In this document: one piece after another, positions 1,152-64,000 of the stretch | Position numbering within the stretch: position 1 is the first letter of the stretch | Layout: the number at the start of each line of letters is the position of its first letter | Assembly (NCBI GenBank): GCA_947172415.1 | Contig: OX359192.1 | Coordinates: 8,615,401-8,679,400, forward strand | Source of the DNA: Chondrosia reniformis | Lineage: Eukaryota > Porifera > Demospongiae > Chondrillida > Chondrillidae | DNA length: 64,000 bases | Direction: 5' to 3' | Notes under the pieces: model-generated | Database searches by the model: none | The model's input: only the letters and a program-made list of their open reading frames with translations | Told to the model about the DNA's origin: nothing | Translations under genes and position numbers: made by a program

Positions 1152-4100
1152 ATGTCCGCCAGAATAGAAGGTGTTCAGGTAGGTATAAACCGGGTTAGTA
1201 AGATGTGGTGGTGTTGTGTTCGGCCTTAGTTGGAGCGGCATACTTATCTTTAGACTAAGAAGGCTGTCCTCGCTCTGCGTCAATACAAGCAGAAGACTTC
1301 AAAGGGAAAGAAGATCGACTTGTTAGGCAACGATGACGTGATCTGGTTATTGTTATCTTTAAAGAAGATCCCTCCAGCAAGCATGAGACCAAAGAGAATG
1401 TAAGCACTCTACGTATGTCCTATTTAGTCTCCATTTTCTTATTTATAGAATTTTTGGTAAAGGCTCTTTTTAGCCAATTCTGATGTGTAATCGTCTAAAT
1501 GCACTTGAAGCGGGTCTGTACAACCTGACATGTTTGTAACAGTTAACTTCTCTATACTACCCGATGTTCATGTGATTAGAAGTTAGCTATATAATGTTTT
1601 GACTGTACCATGTGGTAATTATAACTTCTCTAGTGCCATGGGGTGGGGTATCCCTAGTGCCATGGGGTGGGGTATCCCTAGTGCCATGGGGTGGGGTATC
1701 CCTAGTGCCATGGGGTGGGGTATCCCTAGTGCCATGGGGTGGGGTATCCCTAGTGCCATGGGGTGGGGTATCCCTAGTGCCATGGGGTGGGGTATCCCTA
1801 GTGCCGTGGGGTGGGTATCCCTGGTGCCGTGGGGTGGGGTATCCCTAGTGCCGTGGGGTGGGTATCCCTGGTGCCGTGGGGTGGGGTATCCCTGGTGCCA
1901 TGGGGTGGGGTATCCCTAGTGCCATGGGGTGGGGTATCCCTAGTGCCATGGGGTGGGGTATCCCTAGTGCCGTGGGGTGGGGTATCCCTAGTGCCGTGGG
2001 GTGGGGTATCCCTAGTGCCGTGGGGTGGGGTATCCCTAGTGCCGCGGGGTGGGGTATCCCTAGTACCGCGGGGTGGGGTATCCCTGGTGCCACGGGGTGG
2101 GGTATCCCTGGTGCCACGGGGTGGGGTATCCCTGGTGCCACGGGGTGGGGTATCCCTGGTGCCACGGGGTGGGGTATCCCTGGTGCCATGGGGTGGGGTA
2201 TCCCTGGTGCCACGGGGTGGGGTATCCCTGGTGCCACGGGGTGGGGTATCCCTAGTGCCATCCCTGGTGCCACGGGGTGGGGTATCCCTGGTGCCACGGG
2301 GTGGGGTATCCCTGGTACCACGGGGTGGGGTATCCCTAGTGCCACGGGGTGGGGTATCCCTGGTGCCACGGGGTGGGGTATCCCTGGTGCCACGGGGTGG
2401 GGTATCCCTGGTGCTCTATAGTACAACAATCCAATACTAGTCTGGTGGGTGGAAGAGAATAGGGTCTAGCAACTATTGTCAATTTCACACCTTGCAAATC
2501 ATCACCTTGGACGTTTATTAATGACAATTCCAGTAAGCAGGATATGCTACTCTCCTCTCCAGTGGTGTCTCCTTAGTGGCACCTCTTGCTAGTAGCACCT
2601 CTCACTAGTAGCACCTCTCACTAGGAGCACCTCTCACTAGTAGCACCTCTCACTAGTAGCACCTCTCGCTAGTAGCACCTCTCACTAGGAGCACCTCTCA
2701 CTAGGAGCACCTCTCACTAGTAGCACCTCTTGCTAGTAGCACCTCTCACTAGTAGCACCTCTCGCCAGTAGCACCTCTCGCTAGTAGCACCTCTCGCTAG
2801 TAGCACCTCTTGCTAGTAGCACCTCTCACTAGTAGCACCTCTCGCCAGTTGCACCTCTCGCCAGTAGCACCTCTCGCCAGTAGCACCTCTCACTAGTAGC
2901 ACCTCTCGCTAGTAGCACCTCTCACCAGTAGCATCTCTTGCTAGTGTTTAACAGGTTATTTCCACTTCCTGAGCTGATAACATCTAATTGGATCAATGGA
3001 CATAAGTTCACACTACATGAGTAAACAGTGATGACTCAATCTCCTCCCTTACTGGTTATGGGGAACTGTCCTTTTCACATGATGCTTTCAATATTTTACA
3101 TATTTACTTAATGTGGTTGTGTAGATAAGTCATCCAGGAATTAACCAGTCTAAACTGCCTTACAGCAAGGACAAACATTCTATGAAACTACTAATGGTTT
3201 GATAGTGTATGATTGACCGCTTTTTAACAAGGAATCTTGTTGAAGGGAACATTTTAATGTTCCTTGAGTGTATAATCAGATTCATTACTTAGTAGTAGTT
3301 AGGAGTACTGGTGATGATGTAGAAAGCAAGCAAGATTATCCATAGATATAACTCAAACATGAAACATAAGTTTTGTTAAATTAGTTCATTTGCAGTTCAA
3401 AGCAATACAGCTAGCCCCTCCTATCTTGTGCTGCAGTCCTCACCTCTCCAGACCTTCTACCCAAGGGGCCTGCAGGATACTAAGCTTTGGAGAGAGGTAC
3501 CGAAATGGACAGAAATTCCATATTAAATACTAAGCTAGCAAAATGGTTGCTAGGGTTACTAGTAATGGTTGCTAGGGCTTGTGAAGGAGAGTTTAAAAAC
3601 TCCAAATATGGCAAAACTTATAGATGGCTAGATCTTATCTAATAAATAAGATTTTTTTCATATGTTAATCTCAAGTATGTAGTACCAATCAAAACTTTAA
3701 GATTCATCTGAAGTGCACAAGTTCTCCTATAGGCTCTTTTACACATAAGAATTTTGATTAATGTATCATTCCTGAATCCTCTTTACCTTCCTTTATGGTT
3801 CTGTATACCTTATTATCTAACCAATATCAACGACTGCCAATTGACCACTGCCCTTATCCATTAGAGCCCTTCCTTGTGGCCTATTTCCAGTTGAATCATC
3901 TGAGATATGTCTGATTACCAAAGACAACAAGCAGGCAGTGAAGGAACTGATTGAGCAACACAACATTGTAGGGATTAGCAAGGTCAGTCACATGTAATAT
4001 AATTACGTGCTCTGCTCTAGTTCAGTGCCTCCACACCTCCAGTCTCTGCTCTAGTTCAGTACACTCCACACCTCCAGTCTCTGCTCTAGTTCAGTACACT

Positions 4101-50975: not shown

Positions 50976-51412
50976 AAATGGTGTAGCATATATATCGTGC
51001 GATATTATTATGCAGATTATCGGCATACCAAGTTAAAATGTTTTGACATGAATGGGGCAACTAGAAACACGCAGGGACAGTCCAAAACGCAGCTGTCATA
51101 AGGTCTTTATATAGAGGCAGGTAGCCATTATGCTATTACAGCAATTGAGATTGAGTGTGGCTGGTTATACCAGTTTACGTTCATATCGGAACACCTCTCG
51201 CTAAAATCGTTTCTACATGGGACCAGAAAAGTTGGTCTCCTCCGCCAATCAAGACACTTACAGGATTCTATCCATTTTTCCCAGTTTCTAGATGAACCAC
51301 GAATACTGGATATACCTTTAAAATGGCTTGGAACGATGCACTCATCCCGAATTAACTTGATATAATTTGACTACATTTTTCTCGCAAATACCCTATTCTT
51401 AAGTATGGAATA

Positions 51413-51457
51413 GCGCCAACCACAATCGTTTCCTTTTGAAATTTTCTTGTTTAAATA
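51413..51457 (+). promoter_or_regulatory. PSE-like and TATA-like blocks of ncRNA copy A
   Basis: GCGCCAACCACAATCGTTT (51413-51431, about -65 to -47) and TTTAAATA (51450-51457, -28 to -21 from the G at 51478). These two blocks stay conserved between A and B/C while the bases between them vary. Spacing fits a type-3 Pol III (snRNA-type) promoter. A third conserved block, AATACCCTATTCT plus AAGTAT, lies at 51387-51406. Confidence 0.5.
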
Positions 51458-51477
51458 GAAGCGCAAAACCTTATAAA

Positions 51478-51785
51478 GTAGGCCTACCTGGACACATCTC
51501 TATGGTGGTAGCGGTTCCCATAGAGGTTGGTAGCGCTTAGACTCTGAAGCTGTCTCCTAATCGGTTGGTGCCATAGAGACGTGCTCACCAATAATCCGGA
51601 TTTCGGGGGGGTTCCACGTAATGTGGGATTGGCATCTGATATCTTTAAGGATTCATATGAGTCGGCCATATCGAGAAGAACTGGTTCTTCTCACGCAAGT
51701 GACACCCAAAGCTCAACTCGGCAGAGCGTTACCACCGATCCCGGCCTCTGAGCGTCGTGGATGGTAGCGTTCGGTATGGTCCAAC
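51478..51785 (+). ncRNA. Candidate Pol III-transcribed structured RNA, copy A (about 305 nt)
   Basis: The core begins at the palindrome GTAGGCCTAC and ends at GGTCCAAC just before T7. It differs from copy C only by a 2-bp indel near 51642-51645, over about 305 bp, although its flanks have diverged by 20-25%. Predicted hairpins: CTCTATGG/CCATAGAG (51498-51525, 8 bp), TTGGTG/CACCAA (about 51565-51591), CCAC/GTGG around GTAAT, and a 9-bp perfect stem GAGAAGAAC/GTTCTTCTC. TGGAC near the 5' end can pair with GTCCA at the 3' end. I checked for hallmarks of SRP, RNase P, MRP, 7SK, U1-U6, U3 and telomerase RNA and found none. Confidence 0.5.
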
Positions 51786-51792
51786 TTTTTTT
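51786..51792 (+). terminator. T7 Pol III terminator of ncRNA copy A
   Basis: Seven T residues immediately after the conserved core; also T7 at the same place in copies B and C. Confidence 0.5.
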
Positions 51793-52019
51793 CTTTGGAG
51801 TTTCATTAGCCGTCGATCGGCAAAATTTCACTTTAACGACATCCATATAATATATGTGGATAGACACTACTTCAACAACAATCAAGTACTACACAGTGCA
51901 TATCCATGTGTATAAAAAATCTTTCAAAGAGTTCTATTTTTTCAGAAATATATACAGTACCGCAGTTTCACTCTTACACCTACTCAAGGTCGGCCATTTA
52001 TAGTATTACGCAATTAGGG

Positions 52020-53200
52020 TTAGTTAATGTATGGTGAGAGATAGGGCAAATTTATGTAGAAATCAAAATTTCTAAAACTGTTTAGAAATGTTTCATACAT
52101 GTCTGTGAATGTAGACACCAAGTTTAAACTTCATATGCATATTTAGCCATTTGACAGAGTTACAGCACTAAATGTACATTTGTTAAGTTAATGTACGTAT
52201 GGGGAGAGATAGGGCAAATTTAGGTAGAAATCAAAATCTGCAAAACTCATTGGAAACCTTTCATACATCTCTGTGAATACTGGCACAGAGTTTCAGATCC
52301 ATATCTCCCCATTTGGAAGAGTTACAGCACTTAATGTACTTTAAATTACTGCTATACAAAGTTAATGTATGGTGAGAGATAGGGCAAATTTGAGTTGATA
52401 TCAAAATTTTCAAAACTCATTGGAAACCTTTCATACATTTCTGTGAATACTGAGCTAGAGATTCAAACACATATCTGTTTATTTCGAAGAGTTAGAGCCA
52501 TAAATGTACTTTAAATTACTGCTATACAAAGTTAATGTATGGTGAGAGATAGGGTAAATTTGAGCTGATATTAAAATTTGCAAAACTCATTGGAAACCTT
52601 TCATACATCTCTGTGAATACTGAGCTAGAGTTTTAGATACATAACTCTCCAGTTGGAAGAGTTACAGCCATAAATGTACTTTAAATTACTGCTATACAAA
52701 GTTAATGTATGGTGAGAGATAGGGCAAATTTGAGTAGATATAAAAATTTGCAAAACTCATTGGAAACCTTTCATACATCTCTGTGAATACTGGCATAGAG
52801 TTTTAGATCCATATCTCTCCATTTGGAAGAGTTAGAGCCATAAATGTACTTTAAATTACTGCTATACAAAGTTAATGTATGGTGAGAGATAGGGTAAATT
52901 TGAGCTGATATTAAAATTTGCAAAACTCATTGAAAACCTTTCATACATCTCTGTGAATACTGAGCTAGAGTTTTAGATACATAACTCTCCAGTTGGAAGA
53001 GTTACAGCCATAAATGTACTTTAAATTACTGCTATACAAAGTTAATGTATGGTGAGAGATTGGGCAAATTTGAACTGATATCAAAATTTGCAAAACTCAT
53101 TGGAAACCTTTCATACATCTCTGTGAATACTGACATAGAGTTTTAGATACATATCTCTCCATTTGGAAGAGTTACAGCACTTAATGTACATTAGATTCTG
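52020..53200 (+). repeat. 170-bp satellite, subfamily 1, about 7 monomers
   Basis: Monomers start with GTTAATGTATGGTGAGAGAT at 52361, 52531, 52701, 52871 and 53041, exactly 170 bp apart. Subfamily marks: CAAAACTCATTGGAAACCTT and CATACATCTCTGTGAATACT. Monomers at 52531 and 52871 are near identical and differ from 52701, so a dimeric 340-bp higher-order repeat is present. The junction with subfamily 2 lies near 53200. Confidence 0.93.
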
Positions 53201-56200
53201 CTATACAAATTTAATGTATGGTGAGAGATAGGACAAATATGAGTGAACATCAAAATTTGTAAAACTCTTTGGATATGCTTTCAGGATAGCTGTGAATGCT
53301 GACACCAAGTTTCAGCTTCACATCTTTCCAATTGACAGAGTTACAGCACTAAATGTAGATTAGATTCTTGTATACAATTTTAATGTATGGTGAGAGATAG
53401 GGCAAATATGAGTGAACATCAAAATTTGTAAAACTCTTTGGATATGCTTTATGTATGTCTGTGAATGCTAACACCAAGTTTCAGCTTCACATCTTTCCAA
53501 TTGACAGAGTTACAGCACTAAATGTACATTAGATTCTTGCATACAAATTTAAAGTATGGTGAGATATTGGGCAAATATGAGTGAACATCAAAATTTGTAA
53601 AACTCTTTGGATATGCTTTAAGGATAGCTGTGAATGCTGACACCAAGTTTCAGCTTCACATCTTTCCAATTGACAGAGTTACAGCACTAAATGTACATTA
53701 GATTCTGCTATACAATTTTAATGTATGATGAGAGATAGGGCAAATATGAGTGAACATCAAAATTTGTAAAACTCTTTGGATATGCTTTATGTATGTCTGT
53801 GAATGCTAACACCAAGTTTCAGCTTCACATCTTTCCAATTGACAGAGTTACAGCACTAAATGTACATTAGATTCTGCTATACAAATTTAAAGTATGGTGA
53901 GATATTGGGCAAATATGAGTGAACATCAAAATTTGCTAAACTCTTTGGATATGCTTTAAGGATAGCTGTGAATGCTGACAGGAAGTTTCAGCTTCACATC
54001 TTTCCAATTGACAGAGTTACAGCACTAAATGTACATTAGATTATTGTATACAAATTTAATGTATGGTGAGAGATAGGGCAAATATGAGTGAACATCAAAA
54101 TTTGTAAAACTCTTTGGATATTCTTTATGTATGTCTGTGAATGCTAACACCAAGTTTCAGTTTCACATCTTTCCAATTGACAGAGTTATTGCACTAAATG
54201 TACATTAGATTCTTGCATACAAATTTAATGTATGGTGAGAGATAGGGTAAATATGAGTGAACATCAAAATTTGCTAAACTCTTTGGATATGCTTTATGTA
54301 TGTCTGTGAATGCTGACAGCAAGTTTCAGCTTCACATCTTTCCAATTGATAGAGTTACAGCACTAAATGTACAATAGATTCTTGCATACAAATTTAATGT
54401 ACGTATGGTGAGAGATAGGGCAAATATGAGTGAACATCAAAATTTGTAAAACTCTTTGGATATGCTTTAAGGATAGCTGTGAATGCTGACACCAAGTTTC
54501 AGCTTCACATCTTTCCAATTGACAGAGTTACAGCACTAAATGTACATTAGATTCTTGCATACAAATTTAAAGTATGGTGAGATATTGGGCAAATATGAGT
54601 GAACATCAAAATTTGTAAAACTCTTTGGATATGCTTTAAGGATAGCTGTGAATGCTGACACCAAGTTTCAGCTTCACATCTTTCCAATTGACAGAGTTAC
54701 AGCACTAAATGTACATTAGATTCTGCTATACAATTTTAATGTATGATGAGAGATAGGGCAAATATGAGTGAACATCAAAATTTGTAAAACTCTTTGGATA
54801 TGCTTTATGTATGTCTGTGAATGCTAACACCAAGTTTCAGCTTCACATCTTTCCAATTGACAGAGTTACAGCACTAAATGTACATTAGATTCTGCTATAC
54901 AAATTTAAAGTATGGTGAGATATTGGGCAAATATGAGTGAACATCAAAATTTGCTAAACTCTTTGGATATGCTTTAAGGATAGCTGTGAATGCTGACAAC
55001 AAGTTTCAGCTTCACATCTTTCCAATTGACAGAGTTACAGCACTAAATGTACATTAGATTATTGTATACAAATTTAATGTATGGTGAGAGATAGGGCAAA
55101 TATGAGTGAACATCAAAATTTGTAAAACTCTTTGGATATTCTTTATGTATGTCTGTGAATGCTAACACCAAGTTTCAGTTTCACATCTTTCCAATTGACA
55201 GAGTTATTGCACTAAATGTACATTAGATTCTTGCATACAAATTTAATGTATGGTGAGAGATAGGGTAAATATGAGTGAACATCAAAATTTGCTAAACTCT
55301 TTGGATATGCTTTATGTATGTCTGTGAATGCTGACAGCAAGTTTCAGCTTCACATCTTTCCAATTGATAGAGTTACAGCACTAAATGTACAATAGATTCT
55401 TGCATACAAATTTAATGTACGTATGGTGAGAGATAGGGCAAATATGAGTGAACATCAAAATTTGTAAAACTCTTTGGATATGCTTTAAGGATAGCTGTGA
55501 ATGCTGACAGCAAGTTTCAGCTTCACATCTTTCCAATTGACAGAGTTACAGCACTAAATGTACATTAGATTCTTGTATACAAATTTAATGTATGGTGAGA
55601 GATAGGGCAAATATGAGTGAACATCAAAATTTGTAAAACTCTTTGGATATGCTTGGATATCTGTGAATGCTGAGAGCAAGTTTCAGCTTCACATCTTTCC
55701 AATTGACAGAGTTACAGCACTAAATGTACATTAGATTCTTGTATACAAATTTAATGTATGGTGAGAGATAGGGCAAATATGAGTGAACATCAAAATTTGC
55801 AAAACTCTTTGGATATGCTTTAAGGATAGCTGTGAATGCTGACAGCAAGTTTCAGCTTCACATCTTTCCAATTGACAGAGTTACAGCACTAAATGTACAT
55901 TAGATTCTTGTATACAAATTTAATGTATGATGAGAGATAGGGCAAATATGAGTGAACATCAAAATTTGTAAAACTCTTTGGATATGCTTTAAGGATAGCT
56001 GTGAATGCTGACAGCAAGTTTCAGCTTCACATCTTTCCAATTGACAGAGTTACAGCACTAAATGTACATTAGATTCTTGTATACAAATTTAATGTATGAT
56101 GAGAGATAGGGCAAATATGAGGGAACATCAAAATTTGTAAAACTCTTTGGATATGCTTTATGTATGTCTGTGAATGCTGACAGCAAGTTTCAGCTTCACA

Positions 56201-57968
56201 TCTTTCCAATTGACAGAGTTACAGCACTAAATGTACATTAGATTATTGTATACAAATTTAATGTATGGTGAGAGATAGGGCAAATATGAGTGAACATCAA
56301 AATTTGTAAAACTCTTTGGATATTCTTTATGTATGTCTGTGAATGCTAACACCAAGTTTCAGTTTCACATCTTTCCAATTGACAGAGTTACAGCACTAAA
56401 TGTACATTAGATTCTTGTATACAAATTTAATGTATGGTGAGAGATAGGGCAAATATGAGTGAACATCAAAATTTGTAAAACTCTTTGGATATGCTTTAAG
56501 GATAGCTGTGAATGCTGACAGCAAGTTTCAGCTTCACATCTTTCCAATTGACAGAGTTACAGCACTAAATGTACATTAGATTCTGCTATACAAATTTAAT
56601 GTATGATGAGAGATAGGGCAAATATGAGTGAACATCAAAATTTGTAAAACTCTTTGGATATGCTTTATGTATGTCTGTGAATGCTGACAGCAAGTTTCAG
56701 CTTCACATCTTTCCAATTGACAGAGTTATTGCACTAAATGTACATTAGATTCTTGTATACAAATTTAATGTATGGTGAGAGATAGGGCAAATATGAGTGA
56801 ACATCAAAATTTGTAAAACTCTTTGGATATGCTTTATGTATGTCTGTGAATGCTGACAGCAAGTTTCAGCTTCACATCTTTCCAATTGACAGAGTTATTG
56901 CACTAAATGTACATTAGATTCTTGTATACAAATTTAATGTACGTATGGTGAGAGATAGGGCAAATATGAGTGAACATCAAAATTTGTAAAACTCTTTGGA
57001 TATGCTTTAAGGATATCTGTGAATGCTGACAGCAAGTTTCAGCTTCACATCTTTCCAATTGACAGAGTTACAGCACTAAATGTACATTAGATTCTGCTAT
57101 ACAAATTTAATGTATGATGAGAGATAGGGCAAATATGAGTGAACATCAAAATTTGTAAAACTCTTTGGATATGCTTTATGTATGTCTGTGAATGCTGACA
57201 GCAAGTTTCAGCTTCACATCTTTCCAATTGACAGAGTTATTGCACTAAATGTACATTAGATTCTTGCATACAAATTTAATGTATGGTGAGAGATAGGGCA
57301 AATATGAGTGAACATCAAAATTTGTAAAACTCTTTGGATATGCTTTATGCATGTCTGTGAATGCTGACAGCAAGTTTCAGCTTCACATCTCTCCAATTGA
57401 CAGAGTTACAGCACTAAATGTACATTAGATTGTGCTATACAAATTTAATGTACGTATGGTGAGAGATAGGGCAAATATGAGTGAACATCAAAATTTGTAA
57501 AACTCTTTGGATATGCTTTAAGGATAGCTGTGAATGCTGACAGGAAGTTTCAGCTTCACATCTTTCCAATTGACAGAGTTACAGCACTAAATGTACATTA
57601 CATTCTTGCATACAAATTTAATGTATGGTGAGAGATAGGGCAAATATGAGTGAACATCAAAATTTGTAAAACTCTTTGGATATGCTTTATGCATGTCTGT
57701 GAATGCTGACAGCAAGTTTCAGCTTCACATCTCTCCAATTGACAGAGTTACGGCACTAAATGTACAATAGATTCTTGCATACAAATTTAATGTACGTATG
57801 GTGAGAGATAGGGTAAATATGAGTGAACATCAAAATTTGTAAAACTCTTTGGATATGCTTTATGTATGTCTGTGAATGCTGACAGCAAGGTTCAGCTTCA
57901 CATCTCTCCAATTGACAGAGTTACAGCACTAAATGTACATTAGATTCTTGTATAGAAATTTAATGTAC
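53201..57968 (+). repeat. 169-173-bp satellite, subfamily 2, about 28 monomers
   Basis: Subfamily marks: AACTCTTTGGATATGCTTTA, GTGAATGCTGACA and TTTCAGCTTCACATC. Some monomers carry an extra ACGT before ATGGTGAGAG (173 bp). A block of six monomers is duplicated: about 53490-54500 reappears at +1018 bp with very few changes. Confidence 0.95.
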
Positions 57969-58195
57969 GGGAGTTTCGTAATAATATAAATGGCTGACCT
58001 AGAGAAGGGAATATTGAAAATACGTTATTTTTATATGTATATTTGAATGACGAGAACGCTTTTAAAGATTTTAATGCACATGGATATTCACTCTGTAATA
58101 CTTGATTGTTTTGAAGTAGTATCTGTCCATATTATAATATATGGATGTCGCTAAAGTGAAAAATCGTCAATCGACTGCTAAAGAAACTCCAAAGG

Positions 58196-58202
58196 AAAAA
58201 AA
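58196..58202 (-). terminator. T7 Pol III terminator of ncRNA copy B
   Basis: A7 on the plus strand, T7 on the transcribed minus strand, abutting the conserved core. Confidence 0.45.
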
Positions 58203-58507
58203 TTGGACCATACCGAACGCTACCATCCACGACGCTCAGAGGCCGGGATCGGTGGTAACGCTCTGCCGAGTTGAGCTTTGGGTGTCACTTGCGTGAGAAG
58301 AACCAGTTCTTCTCGATATGGCCGACTCATATGAATCCTAAGATATCAGATGCCAATCCCACATTACGTGGAACCCCCCCGAAATCCGGATTATTGGTGA
58401 GCACGTCTCTATGGCACCAACCGATTAGGAGACAGCTTCAGAGTCTAAGCGCTACCAACCTCTATGGGAACCGCAACCACCATAGAGATGTGTCCAGGTA
58501 GGCCTAC
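58203..58507 (-). ncRNA. Candidate Pol III-transcribed structured RNA, copy B
   Basis: Same core as copy A, on the minus strand. Against copy C it has a single substitution (T for A on the transcribed strand, plus-strand CCGCAACC for CCGCTACC), which falls in the 12-nt loop of the CTCTATGG hairpin, not in the stem. Two overlapping plus-strand open frames here are disrupted by the A/B indel and are not taken as coding. Confidence 0.5.
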
Positions 58508-58527
58508 TATTATAAGGTTTTATCTTC

Positions 58528-58571
58528 TATTTAAATAAAGTAATTTCCTATGAAAACGCTTGTGGTTGGCG
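58528..58571 (-). promoter_or_regulatory. TATA-like and PSE-like blocks of ncRNA copy B
   Basis: Minus strand TTTAAATA at 58535-58528 (-28 to -21) and CGCCAACCACAAGCGTTT at 58571-58554, same spacing as copy A. Confidence 0.5.
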
Positions 58572-58690
58572 AATCTTCAATACTTTAGAATAGGGTATTT
58601 TTCGATCTGCAGTAACTCGGGTATCCTTTTTTGAAATTTTACAAAACTAGCAGGATATACTGTATAGCTATATGTGCATACAGCCAAGAG

Positions 58691-61668
58691 GTTTTAGCTT
58701 CATATCTTTCCAATTGACAGAGTTACGGCACTAAATGTAGATTAGATTCTTGTATACAAATTTAAAGTATGGTGAGATATAGGGCAAATATGAGTGAACA
58801 TCAAAATTTGCAAAACTCTTTGGATATGCTTTAAAGATAGCTGTGAATGCTGACAGCAAGTTTCAGCTTCACATCTTTCCAATTGACAGAGTTACAGCAC
58901 AAAATGTACATTAGATTCTGCTATACAAATTTAATGTACGTATGGTGAGAGATAGGGCAAATATGAGTGAACATCAAAATTTGTAAAACTCTTTGGATAT
59001 GCTTTAAGGATGTCTGTGAATGCTGACAACAAGTTTCAGCTTCACATCTTTCCAATTGACAGAGTTACAGCACTAAATGTACATTAGATTCTTGTATACA
59101 AATTTAATGTATGGTGAGAGATAGGGCAAATATGAGTGAACATCAAAATTTGCAAAACTCTTTGGATATGCTTAAAGATAGCTGTGAATGCTGACAGCAA
59201 GTTTCAGCTTCACATCTTTCTAATTGACAGAGTTACAGCACTAAATGTACATTAGATTCTGCTATACAAATTTAATGTACGTATGGTGAGAGATAGGGCA
59301 AATATTAGTGAACATCAAAATTTGTAAAACTCTTTGGATATGCTTTAAGGATTTCTGTGAATGCTGACAACAAGTTTCAGCTTCACATCTTTCCAATTGA
59401 CAGAGTTACAGCACTAAATGTACATTAGATTCTTGTATACAAATTTAATGTATGGTGAGAGATAGGGCAAATATGAGTGAATATCAAAATTTGCAAAACT
59501 CTTTGGATATGCTTAAAGATAGCTGTGAATGCTGACAGCAAGTTTCAGCTTCACATCTTTCTAATTGACAGAGTTACAGCACTAAATGTACATTAGATTG
59601 TGCTATACAAATTTAATGTACGGATGGTGAGAGATAGGGCAAATATGAGTGAACATCAAAATTTGCAAAACTCTTTGGATATGCTTTAAGAATGTCTGTG
59701 AATGCTGACAACAAGTTTCAGCTCCACATCTTTCCAATTGACAGAGTTACAGCACTAAATGTACATTAGATTCTTGTATACAAATTTAATGTATGGTGAG
59801 AGATAGGGCAAATATGAGTGAACATCAAAATTTGCAAAACTCTTTGGATATGCTTTAAGGATGTCTGTGAATGCTGACAGCAAGTTTCAGCTTCACATCT
59901 TTCCAATTGACAGAGTTACAGCACTAAATGTACATTAGATTCTGCTATACAAATTTAACGTACGTATGGTGAGAGATAGGGCAAATATGAGTGAACATCA
60001 AAATTTGTAAAACTCTTTGGATATGCTTTAAGAATGTCTGTGAATGCTGACAACAAGTTTCAGCTTCACATCTTTCCAATTGACAGAGTTACAGCACAAA
60101 ATGTACATTAGATTCTTGTATACAAATTTAATGTATGGTGAGAGATAGGGCAAATATGAGTGAACATCAAAATTTGTAAAACCCTTTGGATATGTTTTAT
60201 GTATGTCTGTGAATGCTGACAACAAGTTTCAGCTTCACATCTTTCCAATTGACAGAGTTATTGAACTAAATGTACAATAGATTCTTGTATGCAAATGTAC
60301 GTATGGTGAGAGATAGGGCAAATATGAGTGAACATCAAAATTTGTAAAACTCTTTGGATATGCTTTAGGGATGTCTGTGAATGCTGACAACAAGTTTCAG
60401 CTCCACATCTTTCCAATTGACAGAGTTACAGCACTAAATGTACATTAGATTCTGCTATACAATTTTAATGTATGGTGAGAGATAGGGCAAATATGAGTGA
60501 ACATCAAAATTTGTAAAACTCTTTGGATATGCTTTATGTATGTCTGTGAATGCTAACACCAAGTTTCAGTTTCACATCTTTCCAATTGACAGAGTTACAG
60601 CACTAAATGTACATTAGATTCTGCTATACAATTTTAATGTATGGTGAGAGATAGGGCAAATATGAGTGAACATCAAAATTTGCAAAACTCTTTGGATATG
60701 CTTTATGGATAGATGTGAATGCTGACAACAAGTTTCAGCTTCACATCTTTCCAATTGACAGAGTTACAGCACTAAATGTACATTAGATTCTGCTATACAA
60801 ATTTAACGTACGTATGGTGAGAGATAGGGCAAATATGAGTGAACATCAAAATTTGTAAAACTCTTTGGATATGCTTTAAGGATGTCTGTGAATGCTGACA
60901 GCAAGTTTCAGCTTCACATCTTTCCAATTGACAGAGTTACAGCACTAAATGTACATTAGATTCTGCTATACAAATTTAATGTATGGTGAGATATTGGGCA
61001 AATATGAGTGAACATCAAAATTTGAAAAACTCTTTGGATATGCTTTAAGGATAGCTGTAAATGCTGACAGCAAGTTTCAGCTTCACATCTTTCCAATTGA
61101 CAGAGTTACAGCACTAAATGTACATTAGATTCTGCTATACAATTTTAATGTATGGTGAGAGATAGGGCAAATATGAGTGAACATCAAAATTTGTAAAACT
61201 CTTTGGATATGCTTTATGTATGTCTGTGAATGCTAACACCAAGTTTCAGTTTCACATCTTTCCAATTGACAGAGTTATTGCACTAAATGTACATTAGATT
61301 CTTGCATACAAATTTAATGTACGGATGGTGAGAGATAGGGCAAATATGAGTGAACATCAAAATTTGCAAAACTCTTTGGATATGCTTTAAGGATGTCTGT
61401 GAATGCTGACAATAAGTTTCAGCTCCACATCCTTCCAATTGACAGAGTTACAGCACTAAATGTACATTAGATTCTGCTTTTCAAATTTAATGTACGTATG
61501 GTGAGAGATAGGGTAGATATGAGTGACCTTCAAAATTTGTAAAACTCTTTGGATATGCTTTATGTATGTCTGTGAATGCTGACAGCAAGGTTCAGCTTCA
61601 CATCTCTCCAATTGACAGAGTTACAGCACTAAATGTACATTAGATTCTTGTATAGAAATTTAATGTAC
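58691..61668 (+). repeat. Satellite subfamily 2 between units B and C, about 17 monomers
   Basis: Same 169-173-bp monomers. Flanks of B and C share private variants (AGCAAGGTTCAGC, TATAGAAATTTAATG on the left; GAGGTTTTAGCTTC on the right), so B and C were amplified together with neighbouring satellite. Confidence 0.93.
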
Positions 61669-61895
61669 GGGAGTTTCGTAATAATATAAATGGCCGACCT
61701 AGAGAAGGGAATATTGAAAATACGTTATTTTTATATGTATATTTGAATGACGAGAACGCTTTTAAAGATTTTAATGCACGTGGATATTCACTCTGCAATA
61801 CTTGATTGTTTTGAAGTAGTATCTGTCCATATTATAATATATGGATGTCGCTAAAGTGAAAAATCGTCAATCGACTGCTAAAGAAACTCCAAAGG

Positions 61896-61902
61896 AAAAA
61901 AA
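61896..61902 (-). terminator. T7 Pol III terminator of ncRNA copy C
   Basis: A7 on the plus strand, at the same position as in copy B. Confidence 0.45.
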
Positions 61903-62207
61903 TTGGACCATACCGAACGCTACCATCCACGACGCTCAGAGGCCGGGATCGGTGGTAACGCTCTGCCGAGTTGAGCTTTGGGTGTCACTTGCGTGAGAAG
62001 AACCAGTTCTTCTCGATATGGCCGACTCATATGAATCCTAAGATATCAGATGCCAATCCCACATTACGTGGAACCCCCCCGAAATCCGGATTATTGGTGA
62101 GCACGTCTCTATGGCACCAACCGATTAGGAGACAGCTTCAGAGTCTAAGCGCTACCAACCTCTATGGGAACCGCTACCACCATAGAGATGTGTCCAGGTA
62201 GGCCTAC
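61903..62207 (-). ncRNA. Candidate Pol III-transcribed structured RNA, copy C
   Basis: Core identical to copy A except the 2-bp indel, and to copy B except one loop base. It keeps the PSE-like and TATA-like blocks at 62271-62254 and 62235-62228. Confidence 0.5.
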
Positions 62208-62227
62208 TATTATAAGGTTTTATCTTC

Positions 62228-62271
62228 TATTTAAATAAAGTAATTACCTATGAAAACGCTTGTGGTTGGCG
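62228..62271 (-). promoter_or_regulatory. TATA-like and PSE-like blocks of ncRNA copy C
   Basis: Minus strand TTTAAATA at 62235-62228 and CGCCAACCACAAGCGTTT at 62271-62254, as in copy B. Confidence 0.5.
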
Positions 62272-62390
62272 AATCTTCAATACTTTAGAATAGGGTATTT
62301 TTCGATCTGCAGTAACTCGGGTATCCTTTTTTGAAATTTTACAAAACTAGCAGGATATACTGTATAGCTATATGTGCATACAGCCAAGAG

Positions 62391-64000
62391 GTTTTAGCTT
62401 CATATCATTCCAATTGACAGAGTTACGGCACTAAATGTAGATTAGATTCTTGTATACAAATTTAAAGTATGATGAGAGATAGGGCAAATATGAGTGAACA
62501 TCAAAATTTGCAAAACTCTTTGGATATGCTTTAAGGATAGCTGTGAATGCTGACAACAAGTTTCAGCTTCACATCTTTCAAATTAACAGAGTTACAGCAC
62601 TAAATGTACATTAGATTCTGCTATACAAATTTAATGTACATACGTATAGTGAGAGATAAGGCAAATATGAGTTAACATCAAAATTTGTAAAACTCTTTGG
62701 ATATGCTTTATGTATTTCTGTGAATGTTAACACCAAGTTTCAGCTTCACATCTTTCTAATTGACAGAGTTACAGCACTAAATGTACATTAGATTCTTGTA
62801 TACAAATTTAATGTATGATGAGAGATAGGGCAAATATGAGTGAACATCAAAATTTGTAAAACTCTTTGGATATGCTTTAAGGAAGTCTGTGAATGCTGAC
62901 AACAAGTTTTAGCTCCACATCTTTCCAATTGACAGAGTTACAGCACTAAATGTACATTAGATTCTTGTATACAAATTTAATGTACGTATGGTGAGAGATA
63001 GGGCAAATATGAGTGAACATCAAAATTTGTAAAACTCTTTGGATATGCTTTAGGGATGTCTGTGAATGCTGACAACAAGTTTCAGCTCCACATCTTTCCA
63101 ATTGACAGAGTTACAGCACTAAATGTACATTAGATTCTTGCATACAAATTTAATGTATGGTGAGATATAGGGCAAATATGAGTGAACATCAAAATTTGTA
63201 AAACTCTTTGGATATGTTTTATGGATGTCTGTGAATGCTGACAGCAAGTTTCAGCTTCACATCTTTCCAATTGACAGAGTTACAGCACTAAATGTACATT
63301 AGATTCTGCTATACAAATTTAATGTATGGTGAGAGATAGGGCAAATATGAGTGAACATCAAAATTTGTAAAACTCTTTGGATATGCTTTATGTATGTCTG
63401 TGAATGCTGACAACAAGTTTCAGCTTCACATCTTTCCAATTGACAGAGTTATTGAACTAAATGTACAATAGATTCTTGCATAAAAATTTAATGTACGTAC
63501 GTATAGTGAGAGATAGGGCAAATATGAGTGAACATCAAAATTTGTAAAACTCTTTGGATATGCTTTATGTATGTCTGTGAATGCTAACACCAAGTTTCAG
63601 CTTCACATCTTTCCAATTGATAGAGTTATTGCACTAAATGTACATTAGATTCTTGCATACAAATTTAATGTATGGTGAGAGATAGGGCAAATATGAGTGA
63701 ACATCAAAATTTGTAAAACTCTTTGGATATGCTTTAAGGATGTCTGTGAATGCTGACAACAAGTTTCAGCTCCACATCTTTCCAATTGACAGAGTTACAG
63801 CACTAAATGTACATTAGATTCTGCTATTCAAATTTAATGTACGTATGGTGAGAGATAGGGTAAATATGAGTGAACATCAAAATTTGTAAAACTCTTTGGA
63901 TATGCTTTATGTATGTCTGTGAATGCTGACAGCAAGGTTCAGCTTCACATCTCTCCAATTGACAGAGTTACAGCACTAAATGTACATTTGTTAAGTTAAT
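62391..64000 (+). repeat. Satellite subfamily 2, running off the window end
   Basis: About nine further monomers. The last one repeats the left flank of units B and C (AGCAAGGTTCAGC) and then switches to TTTGTTAAGTTAAT as at about 52170, hinting at another subfamily switch beyond 64000. Confidence 0.93.

Follow-up and report, generated by a model that had tools for sequence, protein, structure and literature searches.

The sponge Chondrosia reniformis carries a large family of what are probably genes for a non-coding RNA with a type-3 RNA polymerase III (Pol III) promoter, amplified along with a dispersed satellite and maintained by both selection and concerted evolution, as judged from comparisons of sequence. 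The window (the whole 64-kb stretch of DNA analysed; contig C4, 8615401-8679400) holds three copies of a unit with a core of ~306 bp, A on the + strand and B and C on the - strand, and the family is far larger than this local three-copy feature. The features of the window, in its own coordinates, are the following.

51413..51434, + strand: PSE of copy A, with ACCACAA at 51419-51425 (PWM score 19.5, rank 3 in the window)
51450..51458, + strand: copy A's TATA box, reading TTTAAATAG and 31 nt from ACCACAA (sequence and spacing shared with U6atac)
51480..51785, + strand: core of copy A, predicted to be transcribed as ~306 nt with a U tail (+1 = 51480, placed by the U6atac spacing)
51498-51505, 51518-51525 and 51571-51578: CTCTATGG / CCATAGAG stretches that could pair in the RNA
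51786..51792, + strand: T7 of copy A, presumed Pol III terminator (at least T5 in 75 of 76 copies)
51793..51950, + strand: 3' flank of copy A, homologous between the compared subfamilies and variable past 51804
52024..57967, + strand: satellite array between A and B (period 169, 35 copies)
58551..58572, - strand: PSE of copy B (PWM score 26.4, joint first in the window)
58527..58535, - strand: TATA box of copy B (by sequence and spacing)
58202..58505, - strand: core of copy B, predicted to be transcribed, 304 bp, +1 at 58505 (by alignment)
58202-58196, - strand: T7 of copy B, its first T aligning with C51785 of copy A
58691..61667, + strand: satellite array between B and C (period 169, 17.5 copies)
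62251..62272, - strand: PSE of copy C (PWM score 26.4, joint first in the window)
62227..62235, - strand: TATA box of copy C (by sequence and spacing)
61902..62205, - strand: core of copy C, predicted to be transcribed, 304 bp, +1 at 62205 (by alignment)
61902-61896, - strand: T7 of copy C
62391..63988, + strand: satellite array past C towards the window end

The initial annotation had described three nearly identical copies whose cores differ by one 2-bp indel and one substitution, and all three were found where it implied. The indel is the TA at 51646-51647, present in A and absent from B and C in the alignment; the substitution lies at 51510, where B alone differs, and the base preceding T7 (51785) is also different among the window copies. 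Over ~615 bp, core included, A is ~89% identical to B or C. The T7 directly after the core was borne out too, as was a PSE-like block at about -60 (ACCACAA starts at -61), but the TATA box, which had been placed at -28, starts at -30. ARAGORN found no tRNA gene in the window. A telomere-like TTAGGGTTAG at 52014-52023, close to where the copy A unit meets the satellite, is probably there by chance.

In type-3 promoters SNAPc binds the PSE and TFIIIB binds the TATA box. We located known genes of the same genome (U6, U2, U5, MRP, RNase P and U6atac, part of the candidates being scored in each search) and compared their promoters with those of the copies. ACCACAA followed by a T-rich block was found in four of four U2 genes examined (6 listed) and in seven of seven U5 genes examined (8 listed), and the same block in the promoters of RNase P (1/1) and U6atac (1/1). 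A PWM built from nine PSE sites (4 U2, 4 U5 and 1 RNase P; none from the element) and run over both strands of the 64-kb window ranked the three copies 1-3 (26.4, 26.4 and 19.5). The next match (37074, - strand) scored 13.5 and by eye has no TATA box 31 nt on. The U6atac PSE, outside the training set, scored 23.0. Leave-one-out scores of the nine training PSEs ranged from 9.3 to 30.0; since true PSEs thus fall below the best background of 13.5, the PWM is not sharp for every gene. The PSE-like block of the copies is this species' PSE, and a sponge PSE, about AACCACAAGYGTTT, is thereby obtained from the U2, U5, U6atac and RNase P genes.

The spacing of the elements separates two groups of genes. 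In each of the 11 U2 and U5 genes, which by family we take to be Pol II genes, ACCACAA lies at -56 counted from the model start, versus -61, with a TATA box, in the element copies and in U6atac, by family presumably a Pol III gene. In U6atac, TTTAAATAG comes 31 nt after ACCACAA, and the RNA begins 30 nt farther on. The copies have the same spacings: 31 nt from PSE to TATA in 76/76, and 30 nt from TATA to start in 74/74 copies, those of the 76 with an identifiable start marker, AGGCCTACC. Their TATA box reads TTTAAATAG in 49 of the 76 and TATAAATAG in the other 27; a T-run of at least T5 is present in 75, and PSE, TATA and T5 are intact together in 75 of 76. TTTT is absent from the core, which says little, since it is absent on both strands. 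Taken as sequence features, the PSE, the TATA box, their spacings and the T-run support the type-3 Pol III gene form that had been proposed initially.

The sharing of the PSE with other snRNA-type genes, a check suggested in the initial annotation, held for U2, U5, RNase P and U6atac and failed for U6 and MRP: the block is absent from the best U6 gene (L001, C12:6259216) and from the MRP gene (L081, C13:765951). The annotation had named a U6 gene lacking the block as counting against its reading, and the one strong U6 gene found does lack it. Further U6 genes may exist, since 47 of 10677 U6 candidates were scored. Despite the missing PSE, both of these genes have TATA-like boxes. In two U5 loci an extra PSE lies upstream of the gene (L078:1313 and L080:1310), followed by an apparent decayed U5 copy.

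To count the copies we searched the whole assembly (117,379,552 bases in 15 contigs). A core 30-mer (51525-51554) occurs at 890 places genome-wide with up to three mismatches, 439 on the + and 451 on the - strand, and exactly at 836; the reversed patterns used as controls gave no match. A 471-bp query from copy A gave at least 41 matches, of which 40 spanned its full length at 99-100% identity (40 of 939 candidates scored), on contigs C1, 2, 4, 5, 6, 7, 8, 10 and 11. The pattern PSE-N17-21-TTTAAATAG occurs at 460 places genome-wide (control 0), an incomplete count, because the pattern omits the TATAAATAG copies (27/76); it adds contig C3, so the family is on at least 10 of the 15 contigs. Exact searches found no match in viral contigs (26-mer) or in a set of genome contigs without other sponges (20-mer). 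An earlier description of the family was not found in a literature search, to which subscription papers were mostly out of reach.

The copies are tied to the satellite, whose monomer is 158-170 bp. It was present in 70 of 70 loci (30/30 collected by similarity, and 20/20 in each of two positional sets), which correspond to 67 distinct places, three loci repeating the place of another and window copy A being included. Gene and satellite have the same or the opposite orientation, depending on the subfamily. Regular spacing was seen as well, with three copies 2466 bp apart on C1. Isolated blocks start and stop at varied points of the satellite monomer, and by eye no shared terminal repeat or target duplication was seen at the block ends inspected in the eight isolated loci compared (L033-L040). 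Inverted repeats occur in four of these eight (L033, L035, L036 and L038), and those of L035 and L036 belong to an element that borders the satellite block on its left; these two loci represent at most one insertion, since they have common sequence outside the block on both sides. The same inverted-repeat element carries a type I hammerhead ribozyme (Rfam RF00163; L035:2668-2712 and L036:2351-2395; 34.6 bits, gathering score 34). In L033 a tRNA gene (3956-4028, - strand, 55 bits) is flanked by satellite stretches and located upstream of the gene copy.

For comparisons among copies, we collected them by similarity or by an exact match to the core 30-mer, a choice that under-samples decayed copies. 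Window copy A (L003) was left out before a set of 62 was formed, of which 57 were used (three came from place-repeating loci and two lay near locus ends). The 76-copy set consists of these 57 less L046, a fetched copy that matches the unit only to about 51607, plus 20 new ones. A 50-copy subset of these 76 comprises 45 copies from the first 100 of the 890 listed places (on C1 and C2), the three of the window, and L039 and L040, which were picked from the similarity list and without which the footprint counts hardly change.

Variation among the 50 copies is sharply confined. Only 1/16 sites of the PSE (51416-51431), 1/9 of the TATA box, 24/306 of the core and 1/7 of the T-run are variable, and the figures are 44/51 upstream of the PSE, 15/18 in the spacer between PSE and TATA, 10/21 between TATA and the start, 5/12 at 51793-51804 and 115/146 at 51805-51950. 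For PSE plus TATA versus the two spacers this amounts to 2/25 versus 25/39 (P 7e-6). Diversity is 0.006 in the core versus 0.16-0.39 in most flank blocks. In pairs of copies whose flanks diverge by at least 26%, the core differs by 0.6-0.8% on average (medians 0.3-0.7%), and the ~306-bp core likewise differs by a mean of 0.6-0.8% between subfamilies with a flank difference of ~30%. We then placed changes on a tree of the 50 copies made from the flanks only (270 flank and 279 core sites, the search 30-mer excluded). Flank changes numbered 172 on terminal and 273 on internal branches, and core changes 21 and 11, giving core/flank rates of 0.12 and 0.04, respectively; the flank counts in these ratios may be too high owing to gaps in the flank alignment. 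The core is thus constrained on recent branches too, and more strongly on old ones.

Selection does not act alone. On a flank tree of 76 copies, the core polymorphisms at 51510, 51646 and 51524 require 5, 9 and 8 changes, compared with 25.5, 20.7 and 8.7 on average for shuffled labels. Those at 51510 and 51646 follow the flank tree in part, yet recur in diverged subfamilies, and 51524 fits it no better than random labels do. Because core variants are common to different flank subfamilies, gene conversion probably also acts: the data support exchange of core sequence between subfamilies, probably by this route, and variants may also recur through repeated mutation or through errors in the tree. 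The alternative drawn earlier, of a functional or a recently gene-converted family, therefore needs no choice, there being signs of both, and maintenance by selection plus concerted evolution is the best reading.

The predicted fold adds little. The several strong hairpins reported in the initial annotation found weak backing, the core having an MFE of -106.1 kcal/mol (z -1.3), with 10 of 100 shuffles folding as well. Neither the MFE z nor site-by-site pairing in the core supports a structure. Of the variable sites, 14 are paired in the MFE fold, and in 7 of them the change breaks the pair; the antisense strand folds relatively better (z -2.1 and -2.7). In the same genome RNase P, U6atac and U2 RNAs reach z values of -4.4, -4.3 and -3.9, and the MRP RNA only -1.5, so this shuffle test has little power. 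A candidate compensatory pair, 51499/51524 (T-A in 66 copies, T-G in 8, C-G in 1), was rejected, one C-A copy existing too. Because the RNA has two CCATAGAG stretches with which CTCTATGG can pair, two mutually exclusive folds could form. TGGTAGCG occurs three times in the core (51506, 51528 and 51762).

The family is predicted to yield an RNA of ~310 nt that matches no Rfam family. The lack of an assigned family, noted at the outset without database searches, held when Rfam was searched: none of 4227 families reached its gathering score anywhere in the window. With the threshold relaxed to E 10, the region 51400-51820 gave one match, TMV_UPD-PK3 (E 3.2; 11.7 bits versus a gathering score of 34), which lies in the promoter and which we rejected as chance. 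Other families, including SRP RNA, U snRNAs, U3 and 5S, were rejected for lack of a covariance model match, and so were RNase P and MRP RNAs, for which the genome has its own genes (C6:7092698 and C13:765951). Metazoan telomerase RNAs, sponges included, have been described (PMC8480181, accessible text); the core contains no 7-mer of (CCCTAA)n on either strand, a test that assumes TTAGGG, from which the telomere repeat of this species may differ. Protein coding was rejected, as the longest ORF overlapping the region has 64 aa and a 2-bp indel segregates in 24/76 copies; a Pfam scan of 5 of the 12 ORFs gave only two matches, both below the cut-off (E 0.07 and 0.18). SINE membership was rejected as well, the core not being found alone in unrelated flanks and satellite being present at 70/70 loci.

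How such a family might work can be pictured as follows. With SNAPc bound to the PSE (-61) and TFIIIB to the TATA box (-30), Pol III would start at about 51480 and stop within T7, giving a non-coding RNA of ~310 nt. The gene lies in a ~1-kb unit within the 158-170-bp satellite and would have spread with it as arrays and isolated blocks; the blocks, lacking fixed ends, would fit a spread in which arrays expand and excised satellite DNA, possibly circular, re-inserts. Selection on working copies would keep the promoter and the transcribed region, and core variants would swap between subfamilies, probably by gene conversion. The RNA may act as a nuclear RNP RNA, either at high dosage for the host or in the service of the element.

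Whom the RNA serves is the point on which the most plausible variant of this explanation turns. It may be that the satellite is selfish, its RNA serving its own amplification or homogenisation so that only copies with a live promoter propagate, a possibility to which we give some but clearly minority weight. The ~890 copies and the satellite at 70/70 loci agree with it, as does the weaker constraint on terminal branches (0.12 versus 0.04), expected if old copies drift; however, terminal branches are still constrained about eightfold, beyond what a passive copy would need, and the block ends, judged by eye, have no shared ends or target duplications. A related and more doubtful idea is that the transcript of the satellite's own Pol III gene drives the spread of the satellite or templates the repair of gene copies, which would explain both the footprint edges near the start and terminator and the exchange of core variants between diverged subfamilies. 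Concerted evolution with no functional RNA, the core being homogenised by gene conversion inside the repeat, would account for identical core variants in diverged flank subfamilies and for the 5, 9 and 8 changes at 51510, 51646 and 51524. We nevertheless think it unlikely, because tracts of conversion leave three things unexplained: the two short blocks, PSE and TATA, conserved amid changing spacers; the fixed spacing in 76/76 copies; and the edges near the predicted start and terminator.

The remaining explanations concern the class of gene. Spliced-leader RNA genes usually have a high copy number, and the element has its PSE in common with U2 and U5, so that it might be a Pol II snRNA-type gene, for example for a spliced-leader RNA, whose T-run is no terminator; the -56 position of ACCACAA in U2 and U5 versus -61 plus TATA in U6atac and the element, and the run of at least T5 in 75/76 copies, make this very improbable. 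We hold it equally improbable that the element is a multiplied sponge 7SK RNA too diverged for Rfam. A number of ~890 gene copies would be unusual for 7SK. The genome does encode a HEXIM-family gene (C2:1692605-1692976, E 6.6e-21), and the RF00100 model found no 7SK in it (19 of 1797 candidates scored; this lenient search gave signals in 3/14 control genomes also, none above the cut-off). Length class and polymerase fit, 7SK being a Pol III RNA of 332 nt (PMC8406779, in the text available), but the core has no Rfam match to 7SK and lacks the repeated GAUC of the HEXIM-binding 5' hairpin, containing GATC once, at 51737 in its 3' third. Dispersal over many contigs could suggest a SINE, a DNA transposon or another ordinary mobile element; since homology extends well past the core, satellite accompanies all 70 loci and blocks end at different satellite phases, we regard this as very unlikely.

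A type-3 Pol III gene family carried by a satellite has partial counterparts. Within the same genome, U6atac (RF00619, C13:6345854) is like the copies in its PSE, TTTAAATAG, 31/30-nt spacings and T-run, but Rfam matches it once in the genome (46 of the 5444 candidates being scored), its RNA has another sequence, and it is 122 nt long. The RNase P RNA gene (RF00009, C6:7092698) is alike in its PSE, in a TATA-like box seen by eye and in an RNA of ~300 nt, and differs in its single genome match and in its model, which does not match the core. Satellite 2 of newts uses snRNA-type promoter elements. It is a transcribed satellite, as proposed here, and its transcript holds a hammerhead ribozyme (PMC6155905, accessible part); in the sponge, by contrast, the gene and the satellite monomer are separate sequences, and the core matches no ribozyme family. 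In mouse-like rodents a single Pol III RNA, 4.5SH, is encoded by hundreds of gene copies, and every copy lies in a long tandem repeat (PMC10137851); these genes are 7SL-derived with A and B boxes, whereas the sponge copies have an external PSE and TATA box and lie in a 158-170-bp satellite.

If transcribed, the copies would define an RNA family with no Rfam match and with the size and promoter class of 7SK, RNase P and MRP RNAs, present in an early-branching animal at a copy number near 890. They would also clearly exemplify a satellite that disperses an RNA gene together with its promoter. The repeat lets selection and gene conversion be measured separately within one element.
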